Below are positions 5,691-61,026 of a DNA stretch of 64,000 nucleotides, piece by piece. The notes beneath the pieces were generated by a model that was given only the letters and a program-made list of their open reading frames with translations, did no database searches and had not been told where the DNA came from. Origin of the DNA: Streptomyces sp. SDr-06. GTDB taxonomy: Bacteria; Actinomycetota; Actinomycetes; Streptomycetales; Streptomycetaceae. The translations under genes were made by a program, and so were the position numbers. Position 1 is the first letter of the stretch; each line of letters opens with the position of its first letter. The DNA is taken from the NCBI RefSeq assembly GCF_003324565.1, contig NZ_QOLA01000002.1, positions 186,001 through 250,000 of the forward strand, written 5' to 3'.

Positions 5691-5911
5691 GTACGGGACT
5701 CCTCGGAGATCGACGGCGCGGGCGGGCCCGAACCGTGCCGGGCCCAGATCGTCGACCCTACGCGGCGCCGTCCGGACGCATGATCCGCATCCTGCCGTAC
5801 GCCTCCCCGCGTTCCGCTGGAGCGGCCTGCGGCGGGGGAGCGGCCGTGGTCCGGCTCACCTCTTTCCGCTCTTTCCGCTCTTTCCGCCGACGCGGCACCG
5901 AGGTGCCGGGG

Positions 5912-7489
5912 CTACTGGAGCGGGGCCTGCCAGGTCAGGGTCGTGCCGCGGATGCCGTCGTCGCGCATGCCGTTGTCGACGACGGTGAGGCGCACCGCGG
6001 CCCGCCCGTCGGGGAGTTCGGCGCCCGCGTCCACGACCACGCGTACCGAGGACACTCCGGCCCGGCGGTGCGCGGCGGCCAGCGCGCCGCGCAGAGCCGC
6101 GATCAGCTGGGTGTCCACCGGCTCGCCGACCAGGGCGTCGACCGGGCCCTCGAACCGTACGGAGGGCCGGAAGCCGAGCAGGGCGCCCGCGCCCGCCGTC
6201 TCGCGCAGGACCCGGCCGCGCAGGGTGGTCGGGGCGTCGGCGGGCGGCTGCTGGAGGGCGAAGATCGCGGTGCGTACCTCCTGGATGGTGGAGTCGAGCT
6301 CGTCGACGGCCCGGGTGAGCAGCTCGTCGGTGTCGTCGGCGGCGGCCTTCTCGGCCCGGCGCCGGGTGGACTCCAGCATCATCTCGGTGGCGAAGAGCCG
6401 CTGCACGACCAGGTCGTGGAGGTCACGGGCGATCCGGTCGCGGTCCTCGTACACGGCGAGCTGTTCGCGGTTGTGCTGGGCGTCGGCCAGGACGAGCGCG
6501 AGGGCCGCCTGCGAGGCGAACTGGGCGGCGAGCAGCCGGTCCACCGCCGTGTACGGCCGGTCGCCGCGCCTGCGGGGCAGCGCCAGCGTGCCGATGAGCT
6601 TGCCTCCGCTCTGCAGCGGCAGCATCATGCTTGGCCCGAACCGGGTGCGTACATGGGTGGTCATCCGGGGGTCGGTCGCCGAGTCCTCCAGGAACACCGG
6701 CTCCCCGCCCAGGAGTTGGACCAGGACCGGCGAGCCTGGCTCGATCGTGGTGCCGATGATGTCGTCGGGGTCGTCCGGCGCGGACGCGGCGACGATCTCC
6801 ATGCCGCCCGCCGGGGTGGGCTGGAGCACCACCCCGGCCGCCGCGTCCGCGAGCAGCCGGGCCCGCTCGGCCACCGTCATCAGGGCGTCCGCCGCCGTCT
6901 CGCCGGTCAGCAGCGAGGTCGTGACGGCCGCCGCGCCCTCGATCCAGCGCTCCCGCAGCCGCACGGTCTCGTAGAGCCGGGCGTTGCCGATGGCGATGCC
7001 GGCCTGCGCGGCCAGGACCCGCAGCAGCGCCAGGTCCTCCTCGGTGAAGGGGCCGCCGCGCTTCTCGGTGAGGTAGAGGTTGCCGAACACCTGGTTGTGG
7101 ACGCGGATCGGGACGCCCAGGAAGGACCGCATCGGCGGGTGGCCGGGCGGCAGTTCCGTCGAGCGGGGATCGGTGCTGCGGTCGTCCAGGCGCAGCGGGC
7201 GCGGGTCCTCGACGAGGGCGCCGAGCAGACCGGTGCGGCCGTCGGGCAGCGGGCCGATGCGTTCGCGTTCGGCGTCGGTGAGCCCGGTGGTGTACAGCTC
7301 GGTGAGCCGGCCGCGCTCGGGGTCGACCACCCCGAGCGCCCCGTACCGGGCATCGGCGAGCTCGGTCGCCGTGTCCACGATGTGCTGGAGCGTGGTGCGC
7401 AGTTCGAGGTCGGTACCGACGCCGAGCACCGCCTCCAGGAGCATCGGCAGCCGGGGCGCCGCGCTGTCCGGATTCTCCGCTTCACTCAT
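5912..7489 (-). CDS. GAF-domain sensor histidine kinase with degenerate ATPase domain
   Basis: 525-residue soluble sensor. Two GAF domains (about 20-170 and 185-335) precede a HisKA_3-type dimerisation helix with the phospho-acceptor motif DRDRIARDLHDLVVQRLF (His ~358). The C-terminal ATPase region is odd. Where the N box should read like REALxNxxRHA it reads RGALAAAHRRA, and after VVDNG the glycine-rich lid and G boxes are absent; the protein ends GIRGTTLTWQAPLQ. ATP binding is therefore doubtful. There is no adjacent response regulator. I chose the ATG at 7489; a GTG at 7507 is also in frame. Possibly it acts as a ligand-sensing phosphoacceptor or scaffold rather than an autokinase. Confidence 0.82.
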   Translation of the reverse strand: MSEAENPDSAAPRLPMLLEAVLGVGTDLELRTTLQHIVDTATELADARYGALGVVDPERGRLTELYTTGLTDAERERIGPLPDGRTGLLGALVEDPRPLRLDDRSTDPRSTELPPGHPPMRSFLGVPIRVHNQVFGNLYLTEKRGGPFTEEDLALLRVLAAQAGIAIGNARLYETVRLRERWIEGAAAVTTSLLTGETAADALMTVAERARLLADAAAGVVLQPTPAGGMEIVAASAPDDPDDIIGTTIEPGSPVLVQLLGGEPVFLEDSATDPRMTTHVRTRFGPSMMLPLQSGGKLIGTLALPRRRGDRPYTAVDRLLAAQFASQAALALVLADAQHNREQLAVYEDRDRIARDLHDLVVQRLFATEMMLESTRRRAEKAAADDTDELLTRAVDELDSTIQEVRTAIFALQQPPADAPTTLRGRVLRETAGAGALLGFRPSVRFEGPVDALVGEPVDTQLIAALRGALAAAHRRAGVSSVRVVVDAGAELPDGRAAVRLTVVDNGMRDDGIRGTTLTWQAPLQ

Positions 7490-7546
7490 CCTTCGAGGAT
7501 CTCCCACCGTGGCCGACCGCCCCGGCAGGGGCGACTGTCGCGCCGC

Positions 7547-8584
7547 TCACTCGGCCAGCGGGTCGAGCACCATCGGGTGGATCTGGCCCTCCAGCATCGC
7601 GCCGAGGCCGAGGATCGCGCACACGTCGGGCCGTTCCGCGATGTGCACCGGCATGCCCGTGGAGTCGCGCAGCATCTGGTCGAGACCGGGCAGCAGCGCG
7701 CTGCCGCCGACCATCATGATGCCGCGCTCGGCCAGGTCGGCGACCAGGTCGGGCGGGCACTCCCGGAGCACCTTGCCGATGCCGTCGAGCACCGCGGTGA
7801 GCGGGGTGTGGATGGCGTCGCGTACGGCGGCCGTGTCGACCAGGACCGAGCGGGCGAGGCCGGTGGCGACGTCGCGGCCGTGGATCTCGGTGGACGCGGG
7901 GCCCTGCGGGGTGAGGCCGTTGCCCCTCAGGGCGAGTTGCAGGGGGCGCACGGACTGGCTGGGCAGCATCAGTTCGTGCTGGTGGCGCAGGTGCTGGATG
8001 ACCGCGTGGTCGATGGCCTCGCCGCCGACCGGGATGCGGACGGCCGTCACGATGGCGCCGAGCGAGAGCACCGCGATCTGCGTGGTGGCGGCCCCGCACA
8101 CCATGATCATGGTGGCGGTGGGCTGCTCCACCGGGAGCCCGCAGCCCACGGCGGCCGCGATCAGGGTGTCGACGAGCTCGACCCGGCGGGCGCCGAGGCC
8201 CACCAGGGTCTCCATCGCGGCGCGCTGGGCGAGCGGGTCGCTGTCGTGCGGGGTGCAGGCGGCGGCGCGCAGCCGCGGCTTGCGGCGCAACTGCCGGCGC
8301 AGCTTCTCGCCCAGCAGATGGCGCAGCATGCGCTGGGCCATCTCGATGTCGACGACGGTGCCGCCGGACACCGGGCGGGCCACCCGGATGTAGTCGGGCG
8401 TGCGGCCCGTCATCTGTTCGGCGAAGGCGCCGACGGCGATGAGCGCGCCGGTACGGGTGTTGACGGCGGCCACGCTCGGCTCGTCGACGACGAGCCCGGC
8501 TCCCTTGACGTAGACCCGTGTTCTCGCGGCCCCGAGGTCGACGGCTACATGGCAACGGCGCAACTGCTCAAGACTGACGGTCAC
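7547..8584 (-). CDS. mbl: MreB-like actin homologue Mbl
   Basis: 345-residue actin-fold protein. The phosphate-1 segment (VAVDLGAARTRVYVKGAG), the connect/phosphate-2 region (TMIMVCGAATTQIAVLSLG) and the adenosine motif (IMMVGGSALLPGLDQML) are recognisable, but several loops are shorter and more divergent than in canonical MreB. This matches Streptomyces Mbl (SCO2451 as I recall), which needs MreB for localisation and contributes to spore wall synthesis. The GTG start has a strong GGGAGGA site. It stands apart from an mreBCD cluster, as in other streptomycetes. A generic MreB label is the alternative; the family assignment itself is secure. Confidence 0.85.
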   Translation of the reverse strand: MTVSLEQLRRCHVAVDLGAARTRVYVKGAGLVVDEPSVAAVNTRTGALIAVGAFAEQMTGRTPDYIRVARPVSGGTVVDIEMAQRMLRHLLGEKLRRQLRRKPRLRAAACTPHDSDPLAQRAAMETLVGLGARRVELVDTLIAAAVGCGLPVEQPTATMIMVCGAATTQIAVLSLGAIVTAVRIPVGGEAIDHAVIQHLRHQHELMLPSQSVRPLQLALRGNGLTPQGPASTEIHGRDVATGLARSVLVDTAAVRDAIHTPLTAVLDGIGKVLRECPPDLVADLAERGIMMVGGSALLPGLDQMLRDSTGMPVHIAERPDVCAILGLGAMLEGQIHPMVLDPLAE

Positions 8585-8965
8585 GGCAGATCCTCCCGAG
8601 AGCGGTACTTAGTTCGCATCTTGCGACCGCGCGGGGGCCCGCGCGCGCTGGGATGCGCCGGTCGGGGAGCGACGACCTGACGGTCGGCCAGAAAGGGGAC
8701 GCCCCGCAGGTCGACCCCGTCTCGCAGGCCTTGGCCGACAGCCGTCCAGGGTGCCGCCTGCCGGACCGTCAGTTGGTCGGGGTGTGGTGTCGGGGTGCGC
8801 GGGGCTCGGGCGACGGGGATGTGCGTGTGCGGGAGGGTGGTGTCGGGGTGGCCGGGCCTCGGTCGGTCGGGATGCTCGTGACCGAGGGAACGGGAAGGGC
8901 GAGCCGGGGCAGCCGGGCGGGATGGGCGCGCGGGCGGCGGTGGGGCGAGCCGGGGGCGCCGGGGT
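8585..8965. other. Intergenic region upstream of mbl
   Basis: 381 bp with no convincing gene. Next to the mbl start lies a GC-palindromic stretch (GCGCGGGGGCCCGCGCGC, near 8629-8646). The 8770-8870 part is G/T-rich and repeats GTGTCGGGGT. The mbl promoter must lie at the left end, but I cannot place -10/-35 boxes reliably. Confidence 0.4.
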
Positions 8966-9532
8966 TCAGGGCAGCAGGCGCTGGAGCAGGCCCCAGGTGA
9001 ACTCCGCGACGCGGGTCCCGCCGCCGGGCAGGGTGATCGCGAGCTGCCAGCGCGTCGGCGCCGAGCCCTCCATCGGGCGGGCCGGGGCGAAGGCCCGGGC
9101 CACCTCGTCCACCGTGCACGACCAGGGCCGCAGGTCCTCCTCCGCGTGCAGTTCGGGGCCCGGTGTGCCGGGGGCCCTGACCAGCCATTCGTTCCACACC
9201 GCGCCGCCGGGCCCGGACAGCACCTCGAAGCGCAGATGCGGCCAGAGCGGCACCGGCCACAGCCGCGCCTCGCAGTCCAGATCCCCGATCCGGCGGGGCA
9301 CCACCGCTTCGGGCTCCCCGAGCACCGACCGGTAGCGCGACAGCGCGCCGCGGGAGCGGGACGACCGGGTCATCGCCTGCCAGCGCTTGTTGGCCTCGCG
9401 CATGTCCGCCACCGAGGCGCCCAGCTGGTGCCGCGCGTCCTCGACGAGGCCCGGCTGGTGGTCGGCCATCCGCCGCAGCAGCACCAGTTGGAAGTCCAGC
9501 GGGCCCAGCGGGCGCGTCACGGTTTCCGTCAT
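8966..9532 (-). CDS. Conserved hypothetical protein
   Basis: 188-residue protein of unknown function. It begins MTETVTRPLGPLDFQLVLLRRMADHQ and has a Trp-rich middle (LWPVPLWPHLRFEVL, VWNEWLVRAPG) and the end EFTWGLLQRLLP. No signal peptide, membrane segment or recognisable catalytic motif is seen. I chose the ATG at 9532; an ATG at 9541 is also in frame. It is divergent from the SCO2400-family gene and appears to be a Streptomyces-type lineage protein, judged from composition and context only. Confidence 0.65.
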   Translation of the reverse strand: MTETVTRPLGPLDFQLVLLRRMADHQPGLVEDARHQLGASVADMREANKRWQAMTRSSRSRGALSRYRSVLGEPEAVVPRRIGDLDCEARLWPVPLWPHLRFEVLSGPGGAVWNEWLVRAPGTPGPELHAEEDLRPWSCTVDEVARAFAPARPMEGSAPTRWQLAITLPGGGTRVAEFTWGLLQRLLP

Positions 9533-48108: not shown

Positions 48109-48270
48109 CCGCGGCATGCCGTCCGGCCCCGGTCCGGCCGACACCGCTGACGTTCGGCCGAATCGTCTGTTTGACCCGGGAACCGGTTACTAGGATCCAT
48201 TCGTTGATCCGATGCCAACGCACGACGGGGACGCTGACCAAGCCGGCCCCTCACACCATTGGGAGGACTC

Positions 48271-48846
48271 GTGGGAGTCAGCCTCAGCAAGGGCGGCAAC
48301 GTCTCGCTGACCAAGGCCGCCCCCAACCTGACCGCGGTCATCGTCGGTCTGGGCTGGGACGCACGCACCACCACCGGGGGTGACTTCGACCTGGACGCCA
48401 GCGCCCTGCTGACCAATGACCAGGGCAAGGTCACCAACGACTCGAACTTCGTGTTCTTCAATAACCTCAAGAGCCCCGACGGCTCCGTCGAGCACCAGGG
48501 TGACAACCTCACCGGTGAGGGCGAGGGCGACGACGAGGTCATCAAGGTGAACCTGGCCGCCGTGCCGGCCGACGTCGCCAAGATCGTCTTCCCGGTCTCG
48601 ATCTACGAGGCCGAGAGCCGCCAGCAGTCCTTCGGCCAGGTGCGCAACGCGTACATCCGCGTCGTGAACCAGGCGGACAACAGCGAGCTGGCCCGGTACG
48701 ACCTGAGCGAGGACGCCTCGACGGAGACCGCGATGGTCTTCGGCGAGCTGTACCGCAACGGCGCGGAGTGGAAGTTCCGCGCCATCGGCCAGGGCTACGC
48801 CTCGGGCCTGCGCGGCATCGCGCAGGACTTCGGCGTCAACGTCTGA
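48271..48846 (+). CDS. TerD-family stress protein (copy 1)
   Basis: 191-residue TerD-domain protein. The calcium-binding signature is intact ([21 protein letters not shown], then [33 protein letters not shown]), with the ending [26 protein letters not shown]. TerD proteins occur in tellurite/stress loci and in Streptomyces affect calcium and development. GTG start with GGGAGGA. It is followed after a hairpin by a closely similar copy. From memory this corresponds to SCO2368/SCO2367. Confidence 0.93.
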
Positions 48847-48937: not shown

Positions 48938-49513
48938 ATGGGCGTCACGCTCGCCAAGGGAGGCAATGTCTCCCTCTCCAAGGCCGCACCGAACCTCACG
49001 CAGGTGCTCGTCGGTCTCGGCTGGGACGCGCGCTCCACCACCGGAGCCGACTTCGACCTCGACGCCAGCGCCCTGCTGTGCGCGAACGGGCGGGTGCTCG
49101 GCGACGAGTACTTCGTCTTCTACAACAATCTCAAGAGCCCCGAGGGGTCGGTCGAGCACACCGGGGACAACCTGACCGGTGAGGGCGAGGGCGACGACGA
49201 GTCGCTCATCGTGGACCTGACGAAGGTGCCCGCCGCCTGCGACAAGATCGTCTTCCCGGTCTCGATCCACGACGCGGACAACCGCGGCCAGACCTTCGGC
49301 CAGGTGGCCAACGCGTTCATCCGCGTCGTCAACCAGGCCGACGGCCAGGAGCTGGCCCGGTACGACCTGAGCGAGGACGCCTCGACGGAGACCGCGATGA
49401 TCTTCGGCGAGCTCTACCGGTACAGCGGCGAGTGGAAGTTCCGTGCTGTTGGTCAGGGGTACGCATCGGGGCTGCGGGGCATCGCTCTAGACTTCGGGGT
49501 CAACGTCTCCTAA
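48938..49513 (+). CDS. TerD-family stress protein (copy 2)
   Basis: 191 residues, the same length as copy 1 and similar throughout ([67 protein letters not shown]), so it is a recent-looking tandem duplicate. Acidic calcium-site residues are conserved. Strong site GGGGAGGA before the ATG. Expected to be cytoplasmic or membrane-associated and to work with the DUF475 membrane protein that follows. Confidence 0.93.
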
Positions 49514-49660: not shown

Positions 49661-50815
49661 ATGGGGAAGTCAGTGCTACTGAAAACCTTCGGCTGGTCGT
49701 TCGCGATCACCGCGATCGGCCTGGCCCTGGCCGTGCTCTACGACGGCTGGACCGCCTTCGGGGTCGTCGCCATCCTGGCGGTCCTGGAGATCTCGCTGTC
49801 CTTCGACAACGCGGTGGTCAACGCCGGGATCCTGAAGAAGATGAACGCCTTCTGGCAGAAGATCTTCCTCACGGTCGGCGTGCTCATCGCCGTCTTCGGC
49901 ATGCGACTGCTCTTCCCCGTCGTCATCGTCGCGATCAGCGCCAAGATCGGCCCGGTCGACGCGGTCGACCTGGCGCTGAACGACGCCGACCGCTACCAGC
50001 AGCTGGTGACCGACGCGCACCCGTCGATCGCCGCCTTCGGTGGCATGTTCCTGTTGATGATCTTCCTCGACTTCATCTTCGAGGACCGCGACATCAAGTG
50101 GCTCGCCTGGCTGGAGCGCCCGCTGGCCAAGCTCGGCAAGATCGACATGCTGTCGGTCTGCATCGCCCTGGTCGTCCTGCTCATCGCCTCCATGACGTTC
50201 GCCACCCATGCCCACCAGCACGGCGGCGCCCACGTCGACAAGGCACAGACCGTCCTGATCTCCGGCATCGCCGGTCTCATCACGTACCTCGTCGTGGGCG
50301 GGCTCTCCGGCTTCTTCGAGAACCGCCTCGAAGAGGACGAGGAGCGCGAGCACGAGGCCGAGGAGGAGGCCAGGCGCACCGGCAGCAAGGTTTCCGCCGT
50401 CGCCATGGCCGGCAAGGCCGCGTTCTTCATGTTCCTCTACCTGGAGGTCCTGGACGCGTCGTTCTCCTTCGACGGCGTCATCGGCGCCTTCGCGATCACC
50501 AACGACATCGTCCTGATGGCGCTCGGCCTCGGCATCGGCGCGATGTACGTCCGGTCGCTCACCGTCTACCTGGTCCGCCAGGGCACCCTCGACGACTACG
50601 TCTACCTGGAGCACGGGGCGCACTACGCGATCGGTGCGCTCGCCGTGATCCTCCTGGTCACCATCCAGTACGAGATCAACGAGGTCATCACCGGCCTCGT
50701 CGGCGTCGTCCTGATCGCCTGGTCCTTCTGGTCCTCGGTGCGCCGCAACCGGCGGATCGCGGCGGACGGCGGCGAGGATTCCAGCGAACGGGCGGAAGTC
50801 GGCTCCGGGGTGTGA
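49661..50815 (+). CDS. DUF475/TerC-like integral membrane protein
   Basis: 384 residues with about eight membrane helices. Two acidic transmembrane motifs of the TerC superfamily are present: EISLSFDNAVVNAGILKKM (~45-63) and LEVLDASFSFDGVIGAFAITNDIVLMALGLGIGAMYVRS (~260-300). The Asp/Asn residues in FDN and FDGV lie within membrane segments and could bind metal. A charged cytoplasmic loop separates the halves. TerC-type proteins are linked to Mn/Ca handling and tellurite resistance. The context beside TerD genes supports a shared stress system. Confidence 0.87.
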   Translation: MGKSVLLKTFGWSFAITAIGLALAVLYDGWTAFGVVAILAVLEISLSFDNAVVNAGILKKMNAFWQKIFLTVGVLIAVFGMRLLFPVVIVAISAKIGPVDAVDLALNDADRYQQLVTDAHPSIAAFGGMFLLMIFLDFIFEDRDIKWLAWLERPLAKLGKIDMLSVCIALVVLLIASMTFATHAHQHGGAHVDKAQTVLISGIAGLITYLVVGGLSGFFENRLEEDEEREHEAEEEARRTGSKVSAVAMAGKAAFFMFLYLEVLDASFSFDGVIGAFAITNDIVLMALGLGIGAMYVRSLTVYLVRQGTLDDYVYLEHGAHYAIGALAVILLVTIQYEINEVITGLVGVVLIAWSFWSSVRRNRRIAADGGEDSSERAEVGSGV

Positions 50816-50966: not shown

Positions 50967-51704
50967 ATGGCGTTCTGGGACGGCGTGTGGCGGGGCAGGG
51001 CCTCACAGTTCGACTCGGGCAGCGCGGCGACCAACACGATCGAGCTGACCCGACGGCACAACACGGTCTCGCTCGGGAAGCAGGGCGCCAACACCGGCAG
51101 CCTGCGGGTCAACCTGTCCTGGCGGATGCGGACCTCGGACTTCGGGGGCAAGCCCGACCAGAGCGGGCGGCTGCTGCGCCACCCGCTCAAGTTCTTCAAG
51201 CCGGAGATGGTCCAGGGGCACACCCAGTCCATGGTCAACGTCGACCTGGACCTCGGCTGCCTGTACGAACTCCAGGACGGCACCAAGGGCGTGGTCCAGC
51301 CGCTGGGCAACTTCCTGGGCGCCACCAACAAGCCGCCCTACGTGGAGTGCAGCGGCGACGACCGGTTCGGCTCGGCGTCGGGCGAGACCATCTTCATCAA
51401 CCTGGACCACCGCGACGACATAAAGCGGCTGCTGGTCTTCGTCTACATCTACGACCAGACCCCGGCCTTCGACCGCACCCACGCCAAGGTGACGCTCTAC
51501 CCGAGCAACGGCCCACGCATCGAGATCGAGCTCGACGAGCGCGCCCCCGAGGCCCGCTCCTGCGCCGTCGTCTCCATCGAGAACATCAAGGGCGACATGG
51601 TGGTGCGGCGCGAGGTGAAGTTCGTGTACGGCTTCCAGGCTGAGCTGGACCGCCTGTACGGCTGGGGCCTCCAGTGGGGCCGCGGCTACAAGACCAAGGC
51701 GTGA
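50967..51704 (+). CDS. Divergent TerD-domain protein
   Basis: 245 residues. TerD fold recognisable (TRRHNTVSLGKQGANTGSLRVNLSWRMRTSD; MVNVDLDLGCLYELQDGTKGVVQPLGNFLG; FINLDHRDDIKRLLVFVYIYD), but longer and with much more basic sequence than the tandem copies. The calcium motif DxDxxA is replaced by VDLDLGCLYEL. It starts at the ATG at 50967. Convergent with the Pro-rich TerD gene with only 9 bp between stops. Probably part of the Ter stress locus. Confidence 0.85.
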   Translation: MAFWDGVWRGRASQFDSGSAATNTIELTRRHNTVSLGKQGANTGSLRVNLSWRMRTSDFGGKPDQSGRLLRHPLKFFKPEMVQGHTQSMVNVDLDLGCLYELQDGTKGVVQPLGNFLGATNKPPYVECSGDDRFGSASGETIFINLDHRDDIKRLLVFVYIYDQTPAFDRTHAKVTLYPSNGPRIEIELDERAPEARSCAVVSIENIKGDMVVRREVKFVYGFQAELDRLYGWGLQWGRGYKTKA

Positions 51705-51713
51705 GCCGCCGCC

Positions 51714-52553
51714 CTACGGGCGGATGAACTGCGGCCCCATGGGTGGCAGGACGAACGCGGGGTCGGGCGCGGGTGCCGGAACGGCGGGCTGGGGGTAGCC
51801 GTACGCGGGCTGCGGCGAGGCCGGCTGCGGATAGCCGTACGACGGCTGCGCGGGGGGCGGCTGGGTGGGCGGCGCGGGGTGCGGGTAGCCGTAGACGGGC
51901 TGGGCCGCGTGCTGCGGGAGCGGCTGGGGCACGGACGGCGCACTGGGCGCGCTGTCGCCGCTGTCCGTGCCGTCTGTGCTGGCCGAGCTGTCTGTGCCGT
52001 CCGGGCTGTCGCCGTCGTCCACCGAGATCCCGTACTCCGTGGCGAGGCCCACCAGGCCGGTCGGGTAGCCCTGGCCCACCGCGCGGAACTTCCAGCCCTC
52101 GCCGCGGCGGTACAGCTCGCCGCAGATGATCGCCGTCTCCTCGCCGGTCTCCGGCTTCACGTCGAACAGCGCGACCGGCTCGGCCCCCGACACCGCCGCG
52201 TCGAACAGCAGGATCCGCAGATCGCGTACGGCACGGAAGGTCGCCCCGTCCGAAGACGCCGTGATCAGCACCCGGTCGACGGACCGGTCGAGCGCGGCCA
52301 GATCGGCCTCGACGGTGTCGGTGAGCCCCTCCGCGACGCGCTTCTTGGGCAGCCTGCGCACCAGGCCCGACGGATGGCGCGGCTGGTTGTAGAAGACGAA
52401 GTCCTCGTCGGAACGCACCCGGCCGTCGGCGGCGAGCAGCAGCGCCGAGGCGTCCACGTCCGGGACGTCGGCGCCGGGCGACCAGCGGAGTACGGCCCGT
52501 ACGGCCGGGGCCTCCAGCGGGACGTTCGATCCCTTCAGCATCGCGTGCGTCAT
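51714..52553 (-). CDS. TerD-family protein with Pro/Gln/Tyr-rich tail
   Basis: 279 residues. The N-terminal TerD domain ([86 protein letters not shown]) spans ~1-175. The remainder is an acidic Ser/Asp linker and a tail of repeated YGYPQPA units. Such tails mediate protein or surface interactions. The ATG at 52553 matches family starts; an ATG at 52562 is nearer the GGGGAGG site. Divergent from the CitE-like gene, sharing its promoter region. Confidence 0.87.
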
Positions 52554-52690
52554 GCCCGTCATCCTGCCTCCCCGCGGGCCCCGCGGACAACGCGGGGCCC
52601 GGCCGGGTACGCCCCGAGATGTACTCGCCGACCACACCCGGGGCGGATGATGCAGACGAGTTACCTGAACTTCACGCACTTGGGGAACTC

Positions 52691-52717
52691 TTGACACGTG
52701 TTCCTACGTACTATTAC
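52691..52717 (+). promoter_or_regulatory. Candidate promoter of the CitE/PRTase/HAD operon
   Basis: TTGACA at 52691-52696 is followed by TATTAC at 52712-52717 (15-bp spacer, somewhat short). GGAAC...GTTCC inverted symmetry surrounds the -35 element and ACACGTGT is a local palindrome. Confidence 0.35.
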
Positions 52718-52762
52718 CGGCCACCCAAATTCTCGGCCGTCCTGGCAGTACGGGGAATGTAT

Positions 52763-53926
52763 ATGCGGCATTTCGGGCACGTCCCGCCGACGGTGCGGAA
52801 GGACCTCTTCCATCAGGAGCCCTGCGAGTTCACCGCGAGCTCCTCAGCACGCGTGCTGTCGGCCGCCCTCGGTGCCACCCTGTACAGCCCGGCGACGCGG
52901 CCCACGCTCGCCGACGATGTCCTGAAACAGGCTCGCCGCGGTGTCGTGTCCATGGTGCTGTGCCTGGAGGACTCGATCGACGACGCCGAGGTGGTGGCCG
53001 CCGAGGCCAATCTGATCCGCCAGTTCGCCGACCTCGACGCCCGCGCCGAGGAGGTCCCGCTGCTCTTCGTGCGGGTCCGCGAGCCCCTCCAGATACCCGA
53101 CCTGGTGCAGCGCCTGGGCGCCTCGGCACGCCTCCTGTGCGGCTTCGTCCTGCCGAAGTTCACCGAGGAGCGCGGCCTCGACTTCCTGGAGGCGCTCACC
53201 GCCGCCGAGTCCGCGAGCGGGCGCCGGCTCTTCGCGATGCCCGTCCTGGAGTCGCCCGAGCTGCTCCACCTGGAGACCCGCACCGAGACCCTGACCGGGA
53301 TCGCGCGCACGGTGGAGAAGTACCGCGAGCGCGTCCTCGCCCTGCGCCTGGGCGTCACCGACTTCTGCTCCGCCTACGGCCTGCGCCGCTCGCCCGACAT
53401 GACGGCGTACGACGTGCAGATCGTGGCCGGGGTCATCGCGGACGTGGTCAACGTGCTCGGCCGGGCCGACGGCAGCGGCTTCACCATCACCGGGCCCGTG
53501 TGGGAGTACTTCCGGCTCCAGGAGCGGATGTTCAAGCCCCAGCTGCGCCGCAGCCCCTTCCTCGAAGGGCGCGCCGAGGAGCTCCGCACCACGCTGATCG
53601 AGCACGACCTGGACGGCCTGCTCCGCGAGATCGAGCTCGACCGGGCCAACGGGCTGCTCGGCAAGACCTGCATACACCCCTCGCACGTGGTCCCCGTGCA
53701 CGCCCTGTCCGTGGTCAGCCACGAGGAGTTCAGCGACGCCCAGGACATCCTGCGGCCCGAACGGGACGGCGGTGGGGTCCTGCGCTCCTCGTACACGAAC
53801 AAGATGAACGAGGTGAAGCCGCACCGCGCCTGGGCCGAGCGCACCCAGCTGCGGGCCGAGGTGTTCGGCGTCGCCGCGGAGGGCGTCGGCTTCGTGGACC
53901 TGCTGGCGGCCGGGCTCGCCGACTGA
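52763..53926 (+). CDS. CitE-like HpcH/HpaI aldolase/lyase of Ter-type stress locus
   Basis: 387-residue TIM-barrel protein related to citrate lyase beta. The metal and substrate segments resemble CitE (VVSMVLCLEDSIDDAEVVAAE; VLPKFTEERG; RLFAMPVLESPELLHLE; GKTCIHPSHVVPVHALSVV). I chose the ATG at 52763 (MRHFGHVPPTVR) with GGGGA six bases upstream; the frame is open back to 52619 but lacks a ribosome site there. It is followed by a PRTase-TRSP-StiP fusion and a HAD phosphatase. This gene set was predicted, from comparative genomics of Ter systems, to produce a nucleoside-like metabolite. No experimental substrate is known to me. Confidence 0.85.
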   Translation: MRHFGHVPPTVRKDLFHQEPCEFTASSSARVLSAALGATLYSPATRPTLADDVLKQARRGVVSMVLCLEDSIDDAEVVAAEANLIRQFADLDARAEEVPLLFVRVREPLQIPDLVQRLGASARLLCGFVLPKFTEERGLDFLEALTAAESASGRRLFAMPVLESPELLHLETRTETLTGIARTVEKYRERVLALRLGVTDFCSAYGLRRSPDMTAYDVQIVAGVIADVVNVLGRADGSGFTITGPVWEYFRLQERMFKPQLRRSPFLEGRAEELRTTLIEHDLDGLLREIELDRANGLLGKTCIHPSHVVPVHALSVVSHEEFSDAQDILRPERDGGGVLRSSYTNKMNEVKPHRAWAERTQLRAEVFGVAAEGVGFVDLLAAGLAD

Positions 53927-53983
53927 CGTGCACGGACGAACAGCGCGCACGAGACGTACGAACGAACAGAGGGACACAGCAAC

Positions 53984-56425
53984 GTGGTTGAGTGGTCGGG
54001 AACCTGGGTCGCCGAGCGGCTGGGCGTCGAGCTCGTCGGGGACGAGCGGCTGAGCGGTCTGCTCGGGCTCGCCCTGCGCCGCAACCCGAAGCGCGCTCAC
54101 CTCCTCGTGTCGAACGTGCTGGGCAAGCACGTGCCGCAGAGCCCCTCCGTGGTGTGGCGCGCGGGATACGAACTGGGTGTACGCGTAGGCGAGTTGCTCG
54201 GCGCGGAGGCGGCCGCGCGGGCCGTGGTGCTCGGGTACGCCGAGACCGCCACGGGCCTCGGCCACTCGGTCGCCGACGGCCTCGCCCTCGCCCCCTTCCT
54301 GCACTCCACCCGCCGCCCGGTGCGGGGCGTGGCGGCCGCGGGCGGCTTCGAGGAGTCCCACTCCCACGCCACCTCCCACCTGCTGCTGCCCGAGGACCCC
54401 CAACTCCTCGCGGGGCAGGGCCCCTTGGTCCTGGTCGACGACGAGTTCTCGACCGGCAACACGGTCCTCAACACCATCCGCGACCTGCACGCGCGCCACC
54501 CGCGCGACCACTACGTGATCGTCGCGCTCGTCGACATGCGCTCACCCGAGGACCGCCGCCGCCTCGACGCCTTCGCGGCGGAGATCGGCGCCCGCGTCGA
54601 CCTGGTCGCCTCCGCGTCGGGCACGGTACGGCTGCCGGAGGGGGTGCTGGAGAAGGGGCGGGCGCTGGTGGAGGAGTACGAGACGGCCGGGCCCGGACCC
54701 GCACCGCACGAGAGCGCCGCTCACCCCTCGATGTGCACCCGGGTCGAGGTGGGCTGGCCCGCGGGGCTTCCCGACGGGGGGCGGCACGGCTTCACCCCGG
54801 CCCACCGGGCCGCCCTGGACGCCGCGCTGCCCGGTATGGCCGCCCGCCTCGCCGAGGCCCTCCCCGCTCCCGGCGGCGCGGGGACACCGCGCGTCCTCGT
54901 GCTCGGCTTCGAGGAGCTGATGTACGCGCCGCTCCGGCTCGCCGTCGCCCTCGAAGAGCTCGGCGGCGCCGAGGTGCGCTACTCCACCACCACCCGCTCG
55001 CCCGTGCTCGCCGTGGACGACCCCGGGTACGCGATCCGCACCCGCCTCGCCTTCCCCGCGCACGACGACCCGGCCGACGGCCCCGGCGAGCGGTACGCGT
55101 ACAACGTCGCGGGCGGCGGCTTCGACGCGGTCGTGGCCGTGGTGGACTCGGCCGCCGACACCCCCCGACTGCACGCCCCCGACGGCCTGTTGGCCCAGCT
55201 CGCCGCCCACATACCGCACGTCGTGCTCGCCGTGCTGCCCTCGTACGTACCCGAAGGTGCCTCCATGTCCGAGCCGCTGCCCGAACCCCTCAGGGGCCCC
55301 GCCTTCTCCTCCTACGCGCCCGACGACGTGGGCTGGCTGCTCAAGGACCTGTCCGGGGTCGAGCTCGAAGCCCCCACCGAGGAGCGCGAGGAGGCCATCC
55401 AGAGCGGCGGCGCCCACTACGCGGAGTCGTTGCCCGTCGAGTACCAGCCGAGCCCGCAGTACCAGGAGCTGTTCCGCGCCGCGCTCGACACCTCGGCCCA
55501 CCGGATCGCGCGGGCCGTCGGCGTGGTCACCGAGACCGTCCTGACCGAGAGGTCGCCGCGCCCCGTGCTCGTCTCGCTCGCCCGGGCCGGGACGCCCGTC
55601 GGCGTGCTGATGCGCCGCTGGGCCCGGCACCGCCACGGCCTGGACCTGCCGCACTACGCGGTCTCCATCGTGCGCGGCCGGGGCATCGACCCGAACGCGC
55701 TGCGCTGGCTCGCCGCCCACCACGACCCCGCCGACGTGGTGTTCGTCGACGGCTGGACGGGCAAGGGCGCCATCACCCGCGAACTGGCCGCAGCCCTAGG
55801 GGAGTTCCCCGAGTTCGAGGGCTTCGATCCGGAGATCGCCGTGCTCGCCGACCCCGGCTCGTGCGTGCGGACGTACGGCACCCGTGAGGACTTCCTGATC
55901 CCGTCCGCCTGCCTCAACTCCACGGTCTCCGGACTGATCTCGCGCACCGTGCTGCGCCGGGACCTCATCGGCCCCGGCGACTTCCACGGCGCCAAGTTCT
56001 ACCGGGAACTGGCCGGGGCCGATGTCTCGGGCGACTTCCTCGACGCCGTCACCGCCCGCTTCGACGAGGTCGAGGCCGACGTGGACCACGAGGCCAAGGC
56101 CCTGCGGGACGCCGACCGCACCCCGAGCTGGGAGGGCTGGGCGGCCGTCGAGCGGATCAGCGAGGCCTACGGCATCCACGACGTCAACCTGGTCAAGCCC
56201 GGCGTCGGCGAGACCACCCGGGTGCTGCTGCGCCGGGTCCCCTGGAAGATCCTCGCCGGGCGGGGCGCCGGGGCCGACCTCGACCACGTACGGCTGCTCG
56301 CCGAACAGCGCGGGGTGCCGGTCGAAGAGGTCGACGGGCTGCCGTACCGCTGCGTCGGACTGATCCACCCCCAGTACACGCGGGGCGCCACCGGCGCGGA
56401 CGGCAAGGCGGTGGCGGCTCAGTGA
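53984..56425 (+). CDS. Phosphoribosyltransferase-TRSP / cysteine protease StiP / PELOTA fusion
   Basis: 813-residue multidomain protein. A phosphoribosyltransferase domain (~30-215) has the PRPP loop LVLVDDEFSTGNT (residues ~148-160). It is followed by a TRSP domain (RYSTTTRSPVLAVDD, ~333-346). From ~440 a StiP-type segment contains IVRGRGIDPNAL, FVDGWTGKGAITREL and PSACLNSTVSGLISR (Cys643). The end (VKPGVGETTRVLLRRVPWKIL ... GVPVEEVDGLPYRCVGLIHP, ~700-790) fits the PELOTA-like RNA-binding domain of this family. PRTase-TRSP and StiP are often separate genes; here they are fused. GTG start; HAD overlaps its stop by four bases. Role: inferred nucleoside-like metabolite synthesis in a stress system. 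Confidence 0.85.
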   Translation: MVEWSGTWVAERLGVELVGDERLSGLLGLALRRNPKRAHLLVSNVLGKHVPQSPSVVWRAGYELGVRVGELLGAEAAARAVVLGYAETATGLGHSVADGLALAPFLHSTRRPVRGVAAAGGFEESHSHATSHLLLPEDPQLLAGQGPLVLVDDEFSTGNTVLNTIRDLHARHPRDHYVIVALVDMRSPEDRRRLDAFAAEIGARVDLVASASGTVRLPEGVLEKGRALVEEYETAGPGPAPHESAAHPSMCTRVEVGWPAGLPDGGRHGFTPAHRAALDAALPGMAARLAEALPAPGGAGTPRVLVLGFEELMYAPLRLAVALEELGGAEVRYSTTTRSPVLAVDDPGYAIRTRLAFPAHDDPADGPGERYAYNVAGGGFDAVVAVVDSAADTPRLHAPDGLLAQLAAHIPHVVLAVLPSYVPEGASMSEPLPEPLRGPAFSSYAPDDVGWLLKDLSGVELEAPTEEREEAIQSGGAHYAESLPVEYQPSPQYQELFRAALDTSAHRIARAVGVVTETVLTERSPRPVLVSLARAGTPVGVLMRRWARHRHGLDLPHYAVSIVRGRGIDPNALRWLAAHHDPADVVFVDGWTGKGAITRELAAALGEFPEFEGFDPEIAVLADPGSCVRTYGTREDFLIPSACLNSTVSGLISRTVLRRDLIGPGDFHGAKFYRELAGADVSGDFLDAVTARFDEVEADVDHEAKALRDADRTPSWEGWAAVERISEAYGIHDVNLVKPGVGETTRVLLRRVPWKILAGRGAGADLDHVRLLAEQRGVPVEEVDGLPYRCVGLIHPQYTRGATGADGKAVAAQ

Positions 56426-57237
56426 GCACACCGCTTCCGCTGGTCGCCAGCGACCTCGACCGCACGCTGGTCTACTCCGCCGCGGCCCTCGGCCTCACCA
56501 TGCCGGACCACCGGGCCCCGCGTCTGCTCTGCGTCGAGGTGCACGAGCACAAGCCCCTCTCGTACGTCACCGAGCAGGCGGCCCGGCTGCTGGCCGAGCT
56601 GAAGACGGCGACCGTGTTCGTGCCCACCACGACCCGCACCCGCAAGCAGTACCAGCGCATCCAACTCCCGGGCCCTCCCTCGGAGTTCGCGATCTGCGCC
56701 AACGGCGGCCACCTGCTCGTCAACGGCGTGTCCGACCTCGACTGGGCGCGTGAGGTGACCGCCCGCATCGCCGCCGAGTGCGCCTCGCTCGACGAGGTTC
56801 GCGCCCATCTGCGGGCCGTCGCCGACCCGGGCTGGCTGCGCAAGGAGCGGGTCGCCGAGGACCTCTTCGCCTACCTCGTGGTCGAACGGGAACTGCTGCC
56901 CGAGGAGTGGGTCAAGGAACTGGCGGCCTGGGCGGACCCGCGCGGCTGGACGGTCTCGCTCCAGGGCCGCAAGATCTACGCGGTGCCGAAGCCGCTCACC
57001 AAGAGCGCGGCGGTCCGCGAGGTGGCCCGCCGCACCGGCGCCGAACTGACCCTGGCCGCCGGGGACTCGCTCCTGGACGCCGACCTGCTGCTGGCCGCCG
57101 ACCGGGGCTGGCGCCCGGGCCACGGCGAGCTCGCCGAGGCGGGCTGGCAGTCGCCCGCCACCGAGGCGCTGGCCGCGCGCGGGGTGCTCGCGGGCGAGGA
57201 GATCCTGCGCCGCCTCCTGGCCGCCGCCGCGTGCTGA
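56422..57237 (+). CDS. HAD-family phosphatase of the Ter-linked operon
   Basis: 271 residues. HAD motif I is ASDLDRTLVYS (Asp11, Asp13); motif III/IV region VPKPLTKSAAVREVARRTGAELTLAAGDSLLDADLLLAADRGW supplies Lys and the acidic pair. It matches the HAD (SPP-like) phosphatase always seen with CitE-like and PRTase-TRSP genes, presumably dephosphorylating the nucleotide-like intermediate. The GTG overlaps the preceding stop by four bases (GTGA): translational coupling. Confidence 0.87.
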   Translation: MSTPLPLVASDLDRTLVYSAAALGLTMPDHRAPRLLCVEVHEHKPLSYVTEQAARLLAELKTATVFVPTTTRTRKQYQRIQLPGPPSEFAICANGGHLLVNGVSDLDWAREVTARIAAECASLDEVRAHLRAVADPGWLRKERVAEDLFAYLVVERELLPEEWVKELAAWADPRGWTVSLQGRKIYAVPKPLTKSAAVREVARRTGAELTLAAGDSLLDADLLLAADRGWRPGHGELAEAGWQSPATEALAARGVLAGEEILRRLLAAAAC

Positions 57238-57279
57238 CGGAGGACCGCCGGACCGTGCTCCACCCGGTACGGTCACCGC

Positions 57280-57939
57280 ATGACCAAGGGAAACAGCACC
57301 AAGATCACTGACGAGTTGTACGCCTACATGCTGGCCCACAACCCCCCGCTGGACGCGGTGCAGCAGGGGCTCGTCGAGACGACGTACGAGCGGCTGCCGG
57401 ATTTCGCGGGCATGCAGTCGGCCGAGGAGCAGGCGCCGCTCCTCGCCTTCCTCGTACGGCTGGTGAACGCCCGTCACATCGTCGAGGTGGGGACCTTCAC
57501 CGGGTTCTCGGCGCTGGCGATGGCGCAGGCGCTCCCGGCCGACGGGAAGCTGATCGCCTGCGACATCTCCGAGGAGTGGACGGCGTACGGCAAGGAGGCC
57601 TGGGCGAAGGCCGGGGTCGCCGACCGCATCGACCTGCGGATCGCGCCCGCCCTGGACACCCTGCGGGCGATGCCGGCCGAGCCGCACATCGACCTCGCCT
57701 ACTTGGACGCGGACAAGGGCAACTACATCGCGTACTGGGAGGAGTTGGTGCCGCGGCTGCGACCGGGCGGCCTCATCGCGACGGACAACGTCCTGTACCA
57801 CGGCCAGGTCCTGGACCCGGAGGCGACCGGCGCGCCCGCCGCGATCCGCGCGTTCAACGAGCACGTGGCCGCGGATGAGCGCATGGACAGCGTCATGCTG
57901 ACCGTCGCGGACGGTCTGACCCTGTCCCGCAAGCGGTAG
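57280..57939 (+). CDS. SAM-dependent O-methyltransferase (caffeoyl-CoA OMT-like)
   Basis: 219-residue class I methyltransferase. Motif I is IVEVGTFTGFSALAMAQALP; IACDISEEW is the acidic strand; LDADKGNYIAYWEELVPRLRPGGLIATDNVLYHGQVLD carries the metal-binding Asp/Asn residues of the cation-dependent OMT family. Small catechol-like substrates are typical of the family. It follows the HAD gene by 42 bp and may be in the same transcript, although methyltransferases are not part of the classic Ter set. No other context. Confidence 0.9.
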   Translation: MTKGNSTKITDELYAYMLAHNPPLDAVQQGLVETTYERLPDFAGMQSAEEQAPLLAFLVRLVNARHIVEVGTFTGFSALAMAQALPADGKLIACDISEEWTAYGKEAWAKAGVADRIDLRIAPALDTLRAMPAEPHIDLAYLDADKGNYIAYWEELVPRLRPGGLIATDNVLYHGQVLDPEATGAPAAIRAFNEHVAADERMDSVMLTVADGLTLSRKR

Positions 57940-58308
57940 CACCCCGCGGGGGCGGGGTCCCGCGGCGACCAGCCCAGCCTTTGCGCAGTTCCCCGCGCCC
58001 CTGAAGTGCCGCCGTCCGCCCACGGATCCTGCGTGCCCCGGGGCGCTGGGGAGCTGCTTTTGTCTGCGGGCCGCTGATGGCTCGTCGCGCAGTTCCCCGC
58101 GCCCCTGGGGGTATGGGGCTGCCTTTTGTCTGCGGGTCGTACGTGGCTGGCCGCGCAGTTCCCCGCGCCCCTGAAGTGCCGCCGTCCGCCTATGGACCCT
58201 GCGTGCCCCGGGGCGCTGGGGAGCTGCTTTTGTCTGCGGGCCGTGCGTGGCTGGCCGTTCCCCGCGCCCCTGGCGGGGCTGGGGCGGGGCGGGGCGACGC
58301 ATGAGCCC
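57940..58308. repeat. 170-bp tandem duplication containing the core element
   Basis: 369 bp without a gene. About 90 bp starting at 57983 recurs at 58153 (period 170 bp) with only a few changes: GCGCAGTTCCCCGCGCCCCT, then GAAGTGCCGCCGTCCGCC, GCGTGCCCCGGGGCGCTGGG, and CTTTTGTCTGCGGGCCG. A third core copy with a shorter flank lies between (58087-58106), and a partial one at 58257-58271. Confidence 0.85.
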
Positions 58309-59504: not shown

Positions 59505-60866
59505 TCACGCGCCGTGGCCGCGCTCCTCGCGGATGCGGGCCACCACCTGCGCCACGGTCGCCCGCACCGCCTCGGTCTCGGTCAGGAAGTGCCAGTAGTC
59601 CGGGTGCCTGCCCTCGAGCGTGGCGATGGCCCGCTCCAGCCGCGCCACCGATTCGTCCAGGGGTCCCGCGTGCTTCGGATCGGGGGTGTTGCGGCCGGAC
59701 ATCGCCAGCCGCTGGGCGTCGCGGATCGCGAACCGGGTGCGCTGGATCTCCTGCTGCGGGTCCTTCGCCACGGCGTTGAGCCGGTTCAGCCGGTCACCGG
59801 CGGCCGAGACGGCCTCGTCGGTGGTGTTGAGCAGCGCCCGCACCGTACTGAGCCGCGAGGTCGCGTCGGCCCAGCGCTGCTCATCGCGCGCCTTGGCCGC
59901 CTCCTTGAGCTTGTCCTCCGCCTGCCGTACGGAGACGACGGCCTGCTCGGGCACCTGCTGGAGGTCCTGCCAGCAGGCGGCGGCGAAGCGCCTGCGCAGC
60001 TCGCTCAGGACCGGGTCGACCGCCCCGGCCCGGGTGGTCAGCGCCTGGGCGCGGGTGCGCAGCGAGACCAGCCTGCGGTCGATCTCGGCGGCCCTGGCGG
60101 GCAGTTGCTCGGCCTCGGAACGCAGCGCCTCGGCCTCGCGCAGCACCCGGTCGGCACGCTGGAGCGTCTCGGGCACGCCGTGTTGCCCGGCCCCCTGGTT
60201 GAGCTTGGTGAGCTCCGGCCCGAGCGCGGCGAGCCGGGCCGCGAGCTCGTCGGCCCGCAGCCCCGAGGCGCGCACGGCGTCCAGGGCGGTGCTGGCGCCG
60301 AGCAGCGCGTGCCGAGCCCGCTCGATGGCCGGGGCGAGCCGGGCGAGCTGGGTCTCGGCGGTGTCCAGGAGGGGCCGCAGGTTCTGCTCGAAGCGGTCGA
60401 GCTCGCCCTTCACCCGGACGAGTGCGTCCTTGGCGGCGGTCAGCTCGGCCCGCGCCCGGGAGGCGACGGAGGCGTCCAGGTCGTCCCGGTCCAGGTCGTG
60501 GGCGTCGACAGCGGTGATGTACTGGTTGCTGACCTCGTCGATGCGGCGGCCGAGCGCCTCGAAGTCGTCCACGGCCCGGCGGCCGCCGGGCGAACTGTCC
60601 ACCGCCGTGATCGTCTCGATGGAGATCCGCAGATCGCGCTGGGCGGTGTCCAGTTCGTAGAACGCGGCCGCCGCCGCGTCCTTGGCCGCCTGCGCGTCGG
60701 CGCGCATGCTCTCGCCCCGCCCGCCGAACCAGCGGCGCGTGCCGCCCCCGGCGAAGGCACCCGGCAGCACCGCGGCGCCGAGCACCACGGGGAACGCGAT
60801 GAGCGCCAGCACGTCCCGGACGGTGGCACCCGCTCTGCTGTACGGCCGCGCGTGTGTCGCCGTCAC
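59505..60866 (-). CDS. Hypothetical membrane-anchored coiled-coil protein
   Basis: 453 residues. One N-terminal membrane segment (VLALIAFPVVLGAAVLPGAFAGGG, ~12-35) precedes a long, almost entirely helical region (~45-440) rich in Ala, Arg, Glu and Leu with heptad-like patterns (AAKDALVRVKGELDRFEQNL; LREAEALRSEAEQL). No recognised domain or catalytic motif. It resembles structural/septation-type coiled-coil proteins only in architecture. The GTG at 60866 has GAGAGGGAT upstream. It is divergent from tRNA-Val. Confidence 0.72.
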   Translation of the reverse strand: MTATHARPYSRAGATVRDVLALIAFPVVLGAAVLPGAFAGGGTRRWFGGRGESMRADAQAAKDAAAAAFYELDTAQRDLRISIETITAVDSSPGGRRAVDDFEALGRRIDEVSNQYITAVDAHDLDRDDLDASVASRARAELTAAKDALVRVKGELDRFEQNLRPLLDTAETQLARLAPAIERARHALLGASTALDAVRASGLRADELAARLAALGPELTKLNQGAGQHGVPETLQRADRVLREAEALRSEAEQLPARAAEIDRRLVSLRTRAQALTTRAGAVDPVLSELRRRFAAACWQDLQQVPEQAVVSVRQAEDKLKEAAKARDEQRWADATSRLSTVRALLNTTDEAVSAAGDRLNRLNAVAKDPQQEIQRTRFAIRDAQRLAMSGRNTPDPKHAGPLDESVARLERAIATLEGRHPDYWHFLTETEAVRATVAQVVARIREERGHGA

Positions 60867-61026
60867 ATCCCTCTCCCGTGCTGAGTCGCCCTGCCCGTTC
60901 CATTCTCCCACCAGGAAAGGACGAACACACGGCCCGGTCAGTTCACGCTTCCCCTCTCCCTCCTCACCGGTTCTTACGGGTTTGCGACCGCACCCCATGA
61001 GCCATGTACGCTGTTCCCTCATCCAC

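Follow-up and report, generated by a model that had tools for sequence, protein, structure and literature searches.

What could a C-C bond lyase, a chain of fused transferase-type domains and a phosphatase, encoded in one tight row beside ter genes, be making together? The question is raised by a stretch of 64,000 nucleotides of Streptomyces sp. SDr-06 (contig NZ_QOLA01000002.1, positions 186,001 to 250,000 of the forward strand), referred to here as the window and numbered from its first letter, in which an original prediction made from the letters and their open reading frames had recognized a Ter-linked operon for a nucleoside-like metabolite. The three genes probably encode a conserved, stress-linked pathway which attaches the ribose of phosphoribosyl pyrophosphate (PRPP) to a small molecule and, as judged by their domains, they represent one version of the Ter biosynthetic module, a set already known from a prediction of 2012. 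The three-gene set had been recognized rightly in kind, yet it is not special to this genome.

Gene arrangement and the first transferase

The first gene (52763..53926, + strand) encodes a CitE-like C-C bond lyase (CCL, PF15617; Pfam C-C_Bond_Lyase, E 5e-121) with an ATG start at 52763, and its relatives in Streptomyces stretches align from lyase residue 1. The residues E69, D70, K132, E163, D200, K301 and H305 are kept in 20/20 sequences (segment numbering, +18) and in 7/7 compared in protein numbering. The second gene (53984..56425, +), a single open frame with a GTG start, begins 57 bp past the lyase stop, which ends at 53926, and encodes an 813-residue chain of PRTase_2, TRSP, StiP and PELOTA_1 domains. 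A HAD-IIB-like phosphatase, recognized by a phmmer match to PDB 6d3v/6cj0 and by HAD motifs, is encoded by the third gene (56422..57237, +), the GTG start of which overlaps the 3' end of the fused gene by four bases. Gap, overlap and tight packing are as originally described from the open frames, and a search with profile hidden Markov models and domain boundaries places all four domains of the fused chain far above the Pfam cut-offs. A scan of 51600-58200 gave no promoter match and found two sites resembling terminators (58036 and 58103), against a mean of 0.9 expected by chance.

The PRTase_2 domain (residues 26-213; 54059..54622, +; Pfam 8.8e-68) carries a canonical PRPP loop, LVLVDDEFSTGNT, with D152, D153, E154, T157, G158 and T160, of which D153, E154, G158 and T160 occur in 26/26 rows, T157 in 25 and D152 in 23. 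Its predicted fold resembles adenine phosphoribosyltransferase (VIA Z 14.0, root mean square deviation (rmsd) 3.1, 173 aligned residues), and with two acidic loop residues and TGxT the domain is, by this model, a standard base-type phosphoribosyltransferase (PRTase). The TRSP domain (residues 264-405; 54773..55198, +; Pfam 2.7e-39) matches the first, N-terminal half of PRTase_2 at an hhalign probability of 76% and a score of 36.2, against 17.6 for the best of 20 column shuffles, which argues that TRSP is probably a duplicated PRTase half without the PRPP loop. The model of the full chain has a mean predicted local distance difference test score (pLDDT) of 83.3 and a predicted template modelling score (pTM) of 0.60, a value at which the arrangement of the domains within the fused chain cannot be read from it.

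StiP and the PELOTA_1 tail

The StiP domain (PF11202; residues 442-689; 55307..56050, +; Pfam 4.9e-107) contains the motifs R534-A-G-x-P-x-G540 and F587-V-D-G-W-T-G-K-G595. In the general forms R-x-G-x-P-x-G and F-x-D-x-W-x-x-x-G both are invariant in 27/27 StiP sequences from Actinobacteria, Firmicutes, Proteobacteria, Deinococcus and one phage, and by alignment both appear to lie where PRTases bind PRPP. The comparison of the StiP and PRTase_2 profiles aligns the two PRPP sites with each other, with an hhalign score of 30.0 where the highest of 20 column shuffles reached 21.2. A model of StiP with its PELOTA_1 tail (mean pLDDT 83.9, pTM 0.88), compared with 999 chains, has as its best fold match for StiP the transferase CriT of Hib Bcs3 (8a0c_A residues 639-945, VIA Z 11.2, rmsd 3.8, 201 aligned residues, 10% identity), followed by PyrR (Z 9.4) and other PRTases, while in a library of viral structures nothing matched StiP under E 0.001 and the top two entries were phosphoribosyl transferases. 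Passages of a 2026 paper list PF11202 as PRTase_1, and PRTase_1 is listed beside PELOTA_1 in passages of a 2017 paper. Motifs, profile comparison and predicted fold together point to StiP as a diverged PRTase, at the level of remote homology, followed by an L7Ae-like domain.

That last domain, PELOTA_1 (residues 716-795; 56129..56368, +; Pfam 7.7e-34), gives weak profile matches to L7Ae (E 0.016). In the model, residues about 280-360 match chains of the L30e/YbxF/L7Ae type at Z about 9, and L7Ae is also among the Foldseek matches, so the predicted structure has an L7Ae/L30e fold. The L7Ae motif residues K, E, T and R/K are kept in 25/25 sequences reaching PELOTA_1, and the N before E is replaced by G, A or S.

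The phosphatase and its crystallised relative

The HAD protein has no Pfam match at E 0.01 and its NCBIfam matches of the HAD-IIB type are sub-threshold; the residues D11, D13, T70, R72, K194, G214 and D219 are invariant in 8/8 sequences. With PDB 6d3v/6cj0, the "trehalose phosphatase" of Pseudomonas aeruginosa, it shares a phmmer match over residues 1-240 (E 3.7e-11) and 28.7% identity over 247 columns. A study of P. aeruginosa trehalose phosphatases in the FASEB J of 2018 is said to hold the original assay of this enzyme.

The solved protein is identical at 230/251 positions to the HAD protein of a Pseudomonas ter operon (L131:6208-6966; L-numbers are the labels of compared stretches) and 99.6% identical to the product of a gene which, on a plasmid of P. 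aeruginosa (L144:8001-8759), is flanked by those for PRTase_2 and StiP, with TerB, TerC and TerD nearby. This near-identity to genes inside ter operons argues that the solved "trehalose phosphatase" is itself a member of the Ter module, so that a HAD protein of the Ter module has already been crystallised, and its activity studied under the heading of trehalose-6-phosphate phosphatase. The cysteines of the solved protein stand at 85 and 231 of the 251 letters compared, the positions which passages of PMC6838324 give for Paer-ecTPP, the extrachromosomal P. aeruginosa enzyme. Kinship to a trehalose phosphatase suggests a sugar-phosphate or glycoside-phosphate substrate for the window HAD protein.

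Two observations concern the Pseudomonas stretches alone: a second HAD gene follows the lyase in both ter operons (L131:9000-9728 and L144:10793-11521, annotated as IB type in the latter), and L144 also contains two IS1182 transposase genes.

Conservation in Streptomyces

Relatives were collected by a scan of genome contigs, the best 80 of 555 being taken as named loci. All 80 belong to Streptomyces, the StiP-PELOTA part of the nearest reaching 95% identity to that of the window, and 59 of them form a full-length subset; wider diversity was therefore taken from plasmids, phages and other genomes. A second set comprises 32 stretches outside the 80 loci, with StiP as the bait and accordingly present in 32/32; 23 of these are actinobacterial (19) or Firmicute (4), and eight are Streptomyces chromosomes. 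The literature was drawn on through passages of PMC7824862, PMC7159879, PMC8115787, PMC9933665, PMC3912134, PMC5571608, PMC13109261, PMC8986115, PMC6838324, PMC11127046 and PMC10299916.

The named loci contain the fused frame in 79 cases, the lyase in 76, the HAD gene in 80 and an ATP-grasp gene in none. The four loci with a part missing begin at contig ends, and the 80th fused frame is cut by a contig end. Lyase, fused gene, HAD gene, a diverged TerD, a gene for a 245-residue protein and TerC occur together in 59/59 full-length loci, and StiP was found in 195/199 sampled Streptomyces genomes, the four misses being assemblies broken into some 550 to 1420 contigs. The operon thus belongs to the normal, conserved gene content of Streptomyces. 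In an even draw across the phylum, StiP occurs in 15/296 genomes, 14 of them over the cut-off. The packing recurs as well: measured to the nearest HAD start codon, the fused stop overlaps by four bases in 22/77 loci and by one base in 41/77, and the gap between the lyase and the fused gene, with starts placed by alignment in 68 loci, has a median of 57.5 bp (range 13-196). The same packing across the named loci means that it is not due to chance.

The single 813-residue chain, noted at first as uniting parts that often are separate genes, is real; it is no peculiarity of this window, the fusion being the norm in Streptomyces and recurring in Nocardia-type genomes and Curtobacterium. Among the matches listed were StiP rows with short frames, eight of which were fetched, with others lying at contig edges. 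In L136 and L140 one frame is kept but broken between TRSP and StiP, in L137 the frames differ at this place, in L138 and L139 the frame changes inside or just before TRSP, possibly through assembly errors, and L141-L143 are cut by contig ends.

The ATP-grasp partner

An ATP-grasp gene, usually counted with this set, had been reported as missing from the window. It is indeed not there, and a profile built from two Ter ATP-grasps (A2) found none in the whole genome. As controls, A2 recovered two held-out Ter ATP-grasps from Polaromonas and Pseudomonas plasmids and gave no match in four other records without an ATP-grasp beside the operon. PF15632 matched the genome three times outside the window, at 26-32 bits compared with 129.6 and 135.5 for two Ter ATP-grasps; these matches, one of them in a CarB-sized frame, look like generic ATP-grasps and were rejected.

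No ATP-grasp gene lies beside the operon in any of the 23 actinobacterial and Firmicute stretches (0/23), and none of the Ter type was found in the genome; absence is therefore usual and no gap of this window. Among the proteobacterial and deinococcal plasmid stretches four of eight have one (L115, L116, L129 and L131), and these four built the profile used for the 32 stretches; further matches were obtained in L134, L135 and L144. In L135, a contig from a viral collection, lyase, PRTase_2, StiP, HAD and ATP-grasp genes stand in a row (3910-9381; ATP-grasp E 1.9e-58), with a StiP 50% identical to that of the window. It is the sole case met of the actinobacterial order together with an ATP-grasp, and it speaks against a strict clade rule. 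The ATP-grasp is treated here as a variable part of the Ter module, not as a defining one.

Gene orders, core genes and the history of the fusion

StiP matches 2567 of 72,556 plasmid records. Annotated stretches of Actinobacteria and Firmicutes show the order lyase-PRTase_2-StiP-HAD, those of Proteobacteria and Deinococcus the order PRTase_2-HAD-StiP(-lyase), sometimes preceded by an ATP-grasp gene. Profile matches in the 32 stretches number 31 for PRTase_2, 27 for HAD, 25 for lyase, 4 for ATP-grasp and 26 for TerD. The jumbo phage ME3 keeps just PRTase_2, HAD and StiP, beside TerC and TerD, which points to these three as the minimal core of the module. Of two scans of viral contigs one found no relative and the other three loci, among them L133, which is phage ME3 again.

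PRTase_2 and StiP are fused only within the order lyase-PRTase_2-StiP-HAD, where both are neighbours, and where unfused they share four-base overlaps in L020, L114, L120, L121 and L124. The fused form occurs in Streptomyces, in Nocardia farcinica, in Curtobacterium and in two genomes that belong to a further genus of the same class. A StiP tree of 33 rows requires three changes between fused and split forms, two of them forced by starred branches; its root is unsure, since ME3 and Deinococcus sit on long branches and the outgroup is misplaced, and L122 stands outside the fused/split labels. A single origin of the fusion is not supported by this tree.

A distant form of StiP with TSGGG in the PRPP loop (L023:8760-10145 and L024:8862-9989) occurs in operons with PRTase_2 and TerD in another actinobacterial family; L023 has, by eye, a HAD-like frame that the HAD profile did not match. 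L117, a 15-kb record filed as a bacteriophage from human faeces, looks like a piece of a Firmicute chromosome and holds PRTase_2, StiP, lyase and three TerD genes. L025, taken up from a weak match, contains nothing related to the operon genes and was set aside.

Proposed pathway and alternatives

The general scheme, an ATP-grasp-free form of the Ter-linked module which makes a small ribosylated metabolite from PRPP, is in our view likely. The lyase would build or trim the skeleton of the acceptor through formation or cleavage of a C-C bond, as its family and kept acidic residues suggest, and PRTase_2, whose fold and motifs are those of a PRTase, would move 5-phosphoribose from PRPP onto this putative acceptor. 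StiP, by its remote homology, may carry out a second ribosyl transfer or process or rearrange the first product, its L7Ae-like tail might bind RNA or hold a partner, and the fusion would keep both transferases together. The relative of a crystallised phosphatase would then strip the 5'-phosphate to yield a free riboside, with the adjacent TerD and TerC proteins, by their linkage, as presumed users of or responders to the product. This product is most likely a dephosphorylated riboside, either nucleoside-like or O-linked. The nucleoside-like metabolite to which the original prediction had likened the pathway was predicted in 2012, and passages of later papers cite that work for it; it fits PRTase_2. 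An O-riboside is favoured for the StiP branch by the likeness of StiP to CriT and by the naming of the HAD relative as a trehalose phosphatase.

Several points weigh against this scheme. The second acidic residue of the PRPP loop is G in StiP (A once), and a loop altered in this way may belong to an inactive or regulatory protein; the hhalign probability between StiP and PRTase_2 is only 31%, and the Foldseek E-values of StiP are weak (best 9.1e-3, none under 1e-3). At 28.7% identity the substrate of the window HAD protein may differ from that of the solved enzyme. Within the 32 stretches the lyase profile goes unmatched in phage ME3, Bradyrhizobium, Rhizobium, Curtobacterium and the L023/L024 type, and the HAD profile in Brevibacillus and L117. 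A linear Streptomyces plasmid carries a lone StiP (L122:6941-8071; first motif RGGTPVG instead of RAGTPVG) in a stretch without PRTase_2, HAD, lyase or ter genes. The product had been called undescribed, and the literature passages searched indeed name none and report no transferase activity.

The alternative that survives best is a matter of the linkage formed. StiP and the HAD protein could be an O-ribosylating pair like CriT and CrpP of Hib Bcs3 or like other systems of a glycan PRTase with a phosphatase, and the product an O-riboside and not a nucleoside. In this case 5-phosphoribose would pass from PRPP to a hydroxyl of a sugar or of RNA, and the HAD protein would then take off the phosphate. 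CriT as the top fold match (Z 11.2 versus 9.4 for the next) and a Ter HAD protein solved as a trehalose phosphatase, which suggests a glycoside phosphate as substrate, speak for it, and the logic of PRTase plus HAD phosphatase is established for CriT/CrpP in passages on that system. In the same passages CrpP was docked after a phosphoserine phosphatase. CriT shares only 10% identity with StiP, 8a0c is not among the 50 Foldseek matches listed and gives no sequence match, no StiP counterpart could be assigned to the acidic pair D680/E818 of CriT, and PRTase_2 has the fold of a standard base-type PRTase. CrpP of the phosphoserine phosphatase type presumably belongs to another HAD class than the HAD-IIB type of the window, which we also count against the pair. 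On balance this product is possible but doubtful. The more specific form, in which StiP-PELOTA and HAD would be a PRPP-dependent O-ribofuranosylation pair making no nucleoside, with the ribose placed on a sugar-like acceptor or, under guidance by the L7Ae-like domain, on RNA, and in which the chain would hold two working PRTases and a relict half, is unlikely.

PyrR is a PRTase fold that acts with RNA, and its rank among the top StiP fold matches, the altered PRPP loop and the kept motif of the L7Ae-like PELOTA tail would suit a StiP that is a non-catalytic sensor of PRPP or a nucleotide and controls the operon or ribosomes through PELOTA. The invariance of D589, W591 and G595 in all 27 sequences, across phyla and in a phage, would rather favour catalysis, and an RNA-family scan of the window found tRNA and no other family; this role of StiP we hold to be improbable. 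That StiP is a cysteine protease, and the fused chain a stress protease attached to a biosynthetic enzyme, as its name in Pfam, RefSeq and nearly all annotated plasmid matches listed would have it, is scarcely credible and finds no support in the tests made, given that no cysteine column exceeds 15/27 sequences (in the remaining 12, I, L, A or V stands in place of the SACLNSTVSG cysteine), that the invariant motifs are of the PRPP type, that the alignment to PRTase_2 beats all 20 shuffles, that PF11202 and PELOTA_1 appear in the 2026 and 2017 papers as cited above, and that the Foldseek and VIA matches listed have PRTases, CriT and L7Ae-type proteins at their head, with no cysteine protease among the fold matches listed for StiP, which proves nothing by itself.

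StiP, matched on 2567 plasmid records and found in nearly every sampled Streptomyces genome, belongs to a system the product of which is not named in the literature passages searched. With a solved HAD protein, a PRTase-like StiP and no ATP-grasp step, the chemistry of the ribosylating pathway narrows to PRPP, an acceptor and a phosphatase, which makes it easier to test. The useful contribution lies in corrected annotations for StiP, TRSP and the HAD protein; no priority is claimed for the link between trehalose phosphatase and Ter.

Neighbouring genes

The linkage to ter genes, part of the first description, is borne out: TerD and TerC genes adjoin the operon in the window as they do in the full-length loci. 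Two TerD genes (48259..48846, +, Pfam TerD E 3.3e-86; 48938..49513, +, E 1.2e-83) are followed by the TerC/DUF475 membrane protein (49661..50815, +; DUF475 2e-140, TerC 1.3e-19), the 245-residue protein (50967..51704, +; no Pfam match) and, transcribed away from the lyase, the diverged TerD with a proline-rich tail (51714..52562, -; Pfam TerD E 2.1e-44). A profile of the 245-residue protein matches the second half of two-domain TerD proteins in L116, L129 and L131; the two-domain TerD proteins of other phyla which it resembles are, we assume, TerA-like.

Shortly past the HAD stop lies an O-methyltransferase gene (57280-57939), which occurs in 20/59 full-length loci and was hence rejected as a core gene. 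Further downstream (59505-61022, -) a 505-residue coiled-coil protein with a weak EzrA-like match below the cut-off occurs in 58/59 full-length loci, and its relatives (34-39% identity over about 200 residues) are encoded immediately before the lyase gene in L114, L021, L120 and L121. Searched with the PADLOC and PHROGs libraries, the operon proteins gave no match.

Comparison with known systems

The closest known system is the Ter-linked biosynthetic module of Anantharaman, Iyer and Aravind (2012), which reportedly comprises the same domains. The window shares with it these domains, the Ter linkage and the nucleoside-like product predicted there according to passages of citing papers, and differs from it in the fused chain, in the order lyase-fused gene-HAD and in having no ATP-grasp gene. 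The ter plasmid operons of Enterobacteriaceae and Pseudomonas (L116, L131, L144) likewise encode PRTase_2, HAD, StiP-PELOTA and lyase with gene overlaps, but as separate genes in the order PRTase_2-HAD-StiP-lyase with the ATP-grasp upstream.

Hib Bcs3 (CriT with CrpP, PDB 8a0c) also combines a PRPP-dependent PRTase-like transferase with a HAD phosphatase, whereas its acceptor is a capsule polymer, it possesses helical bundles, no L7Ae domain is described for it and no sequence similarity was detected. The P. aeruginosa trehalose phosphatase (PDB 6d3v, 6d3w, 6cj0) is a homologous HAD protein which is almost identical to a Ter-operon product, but differs from the window HAD at the 28.7% identity given above. 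Adenine phosphoribosyltransferase, finally, resembles PRTase_2 in predicted fold and PRPP loop, to which the window protein adds the TRSP half-domain and the fusion to StiP.

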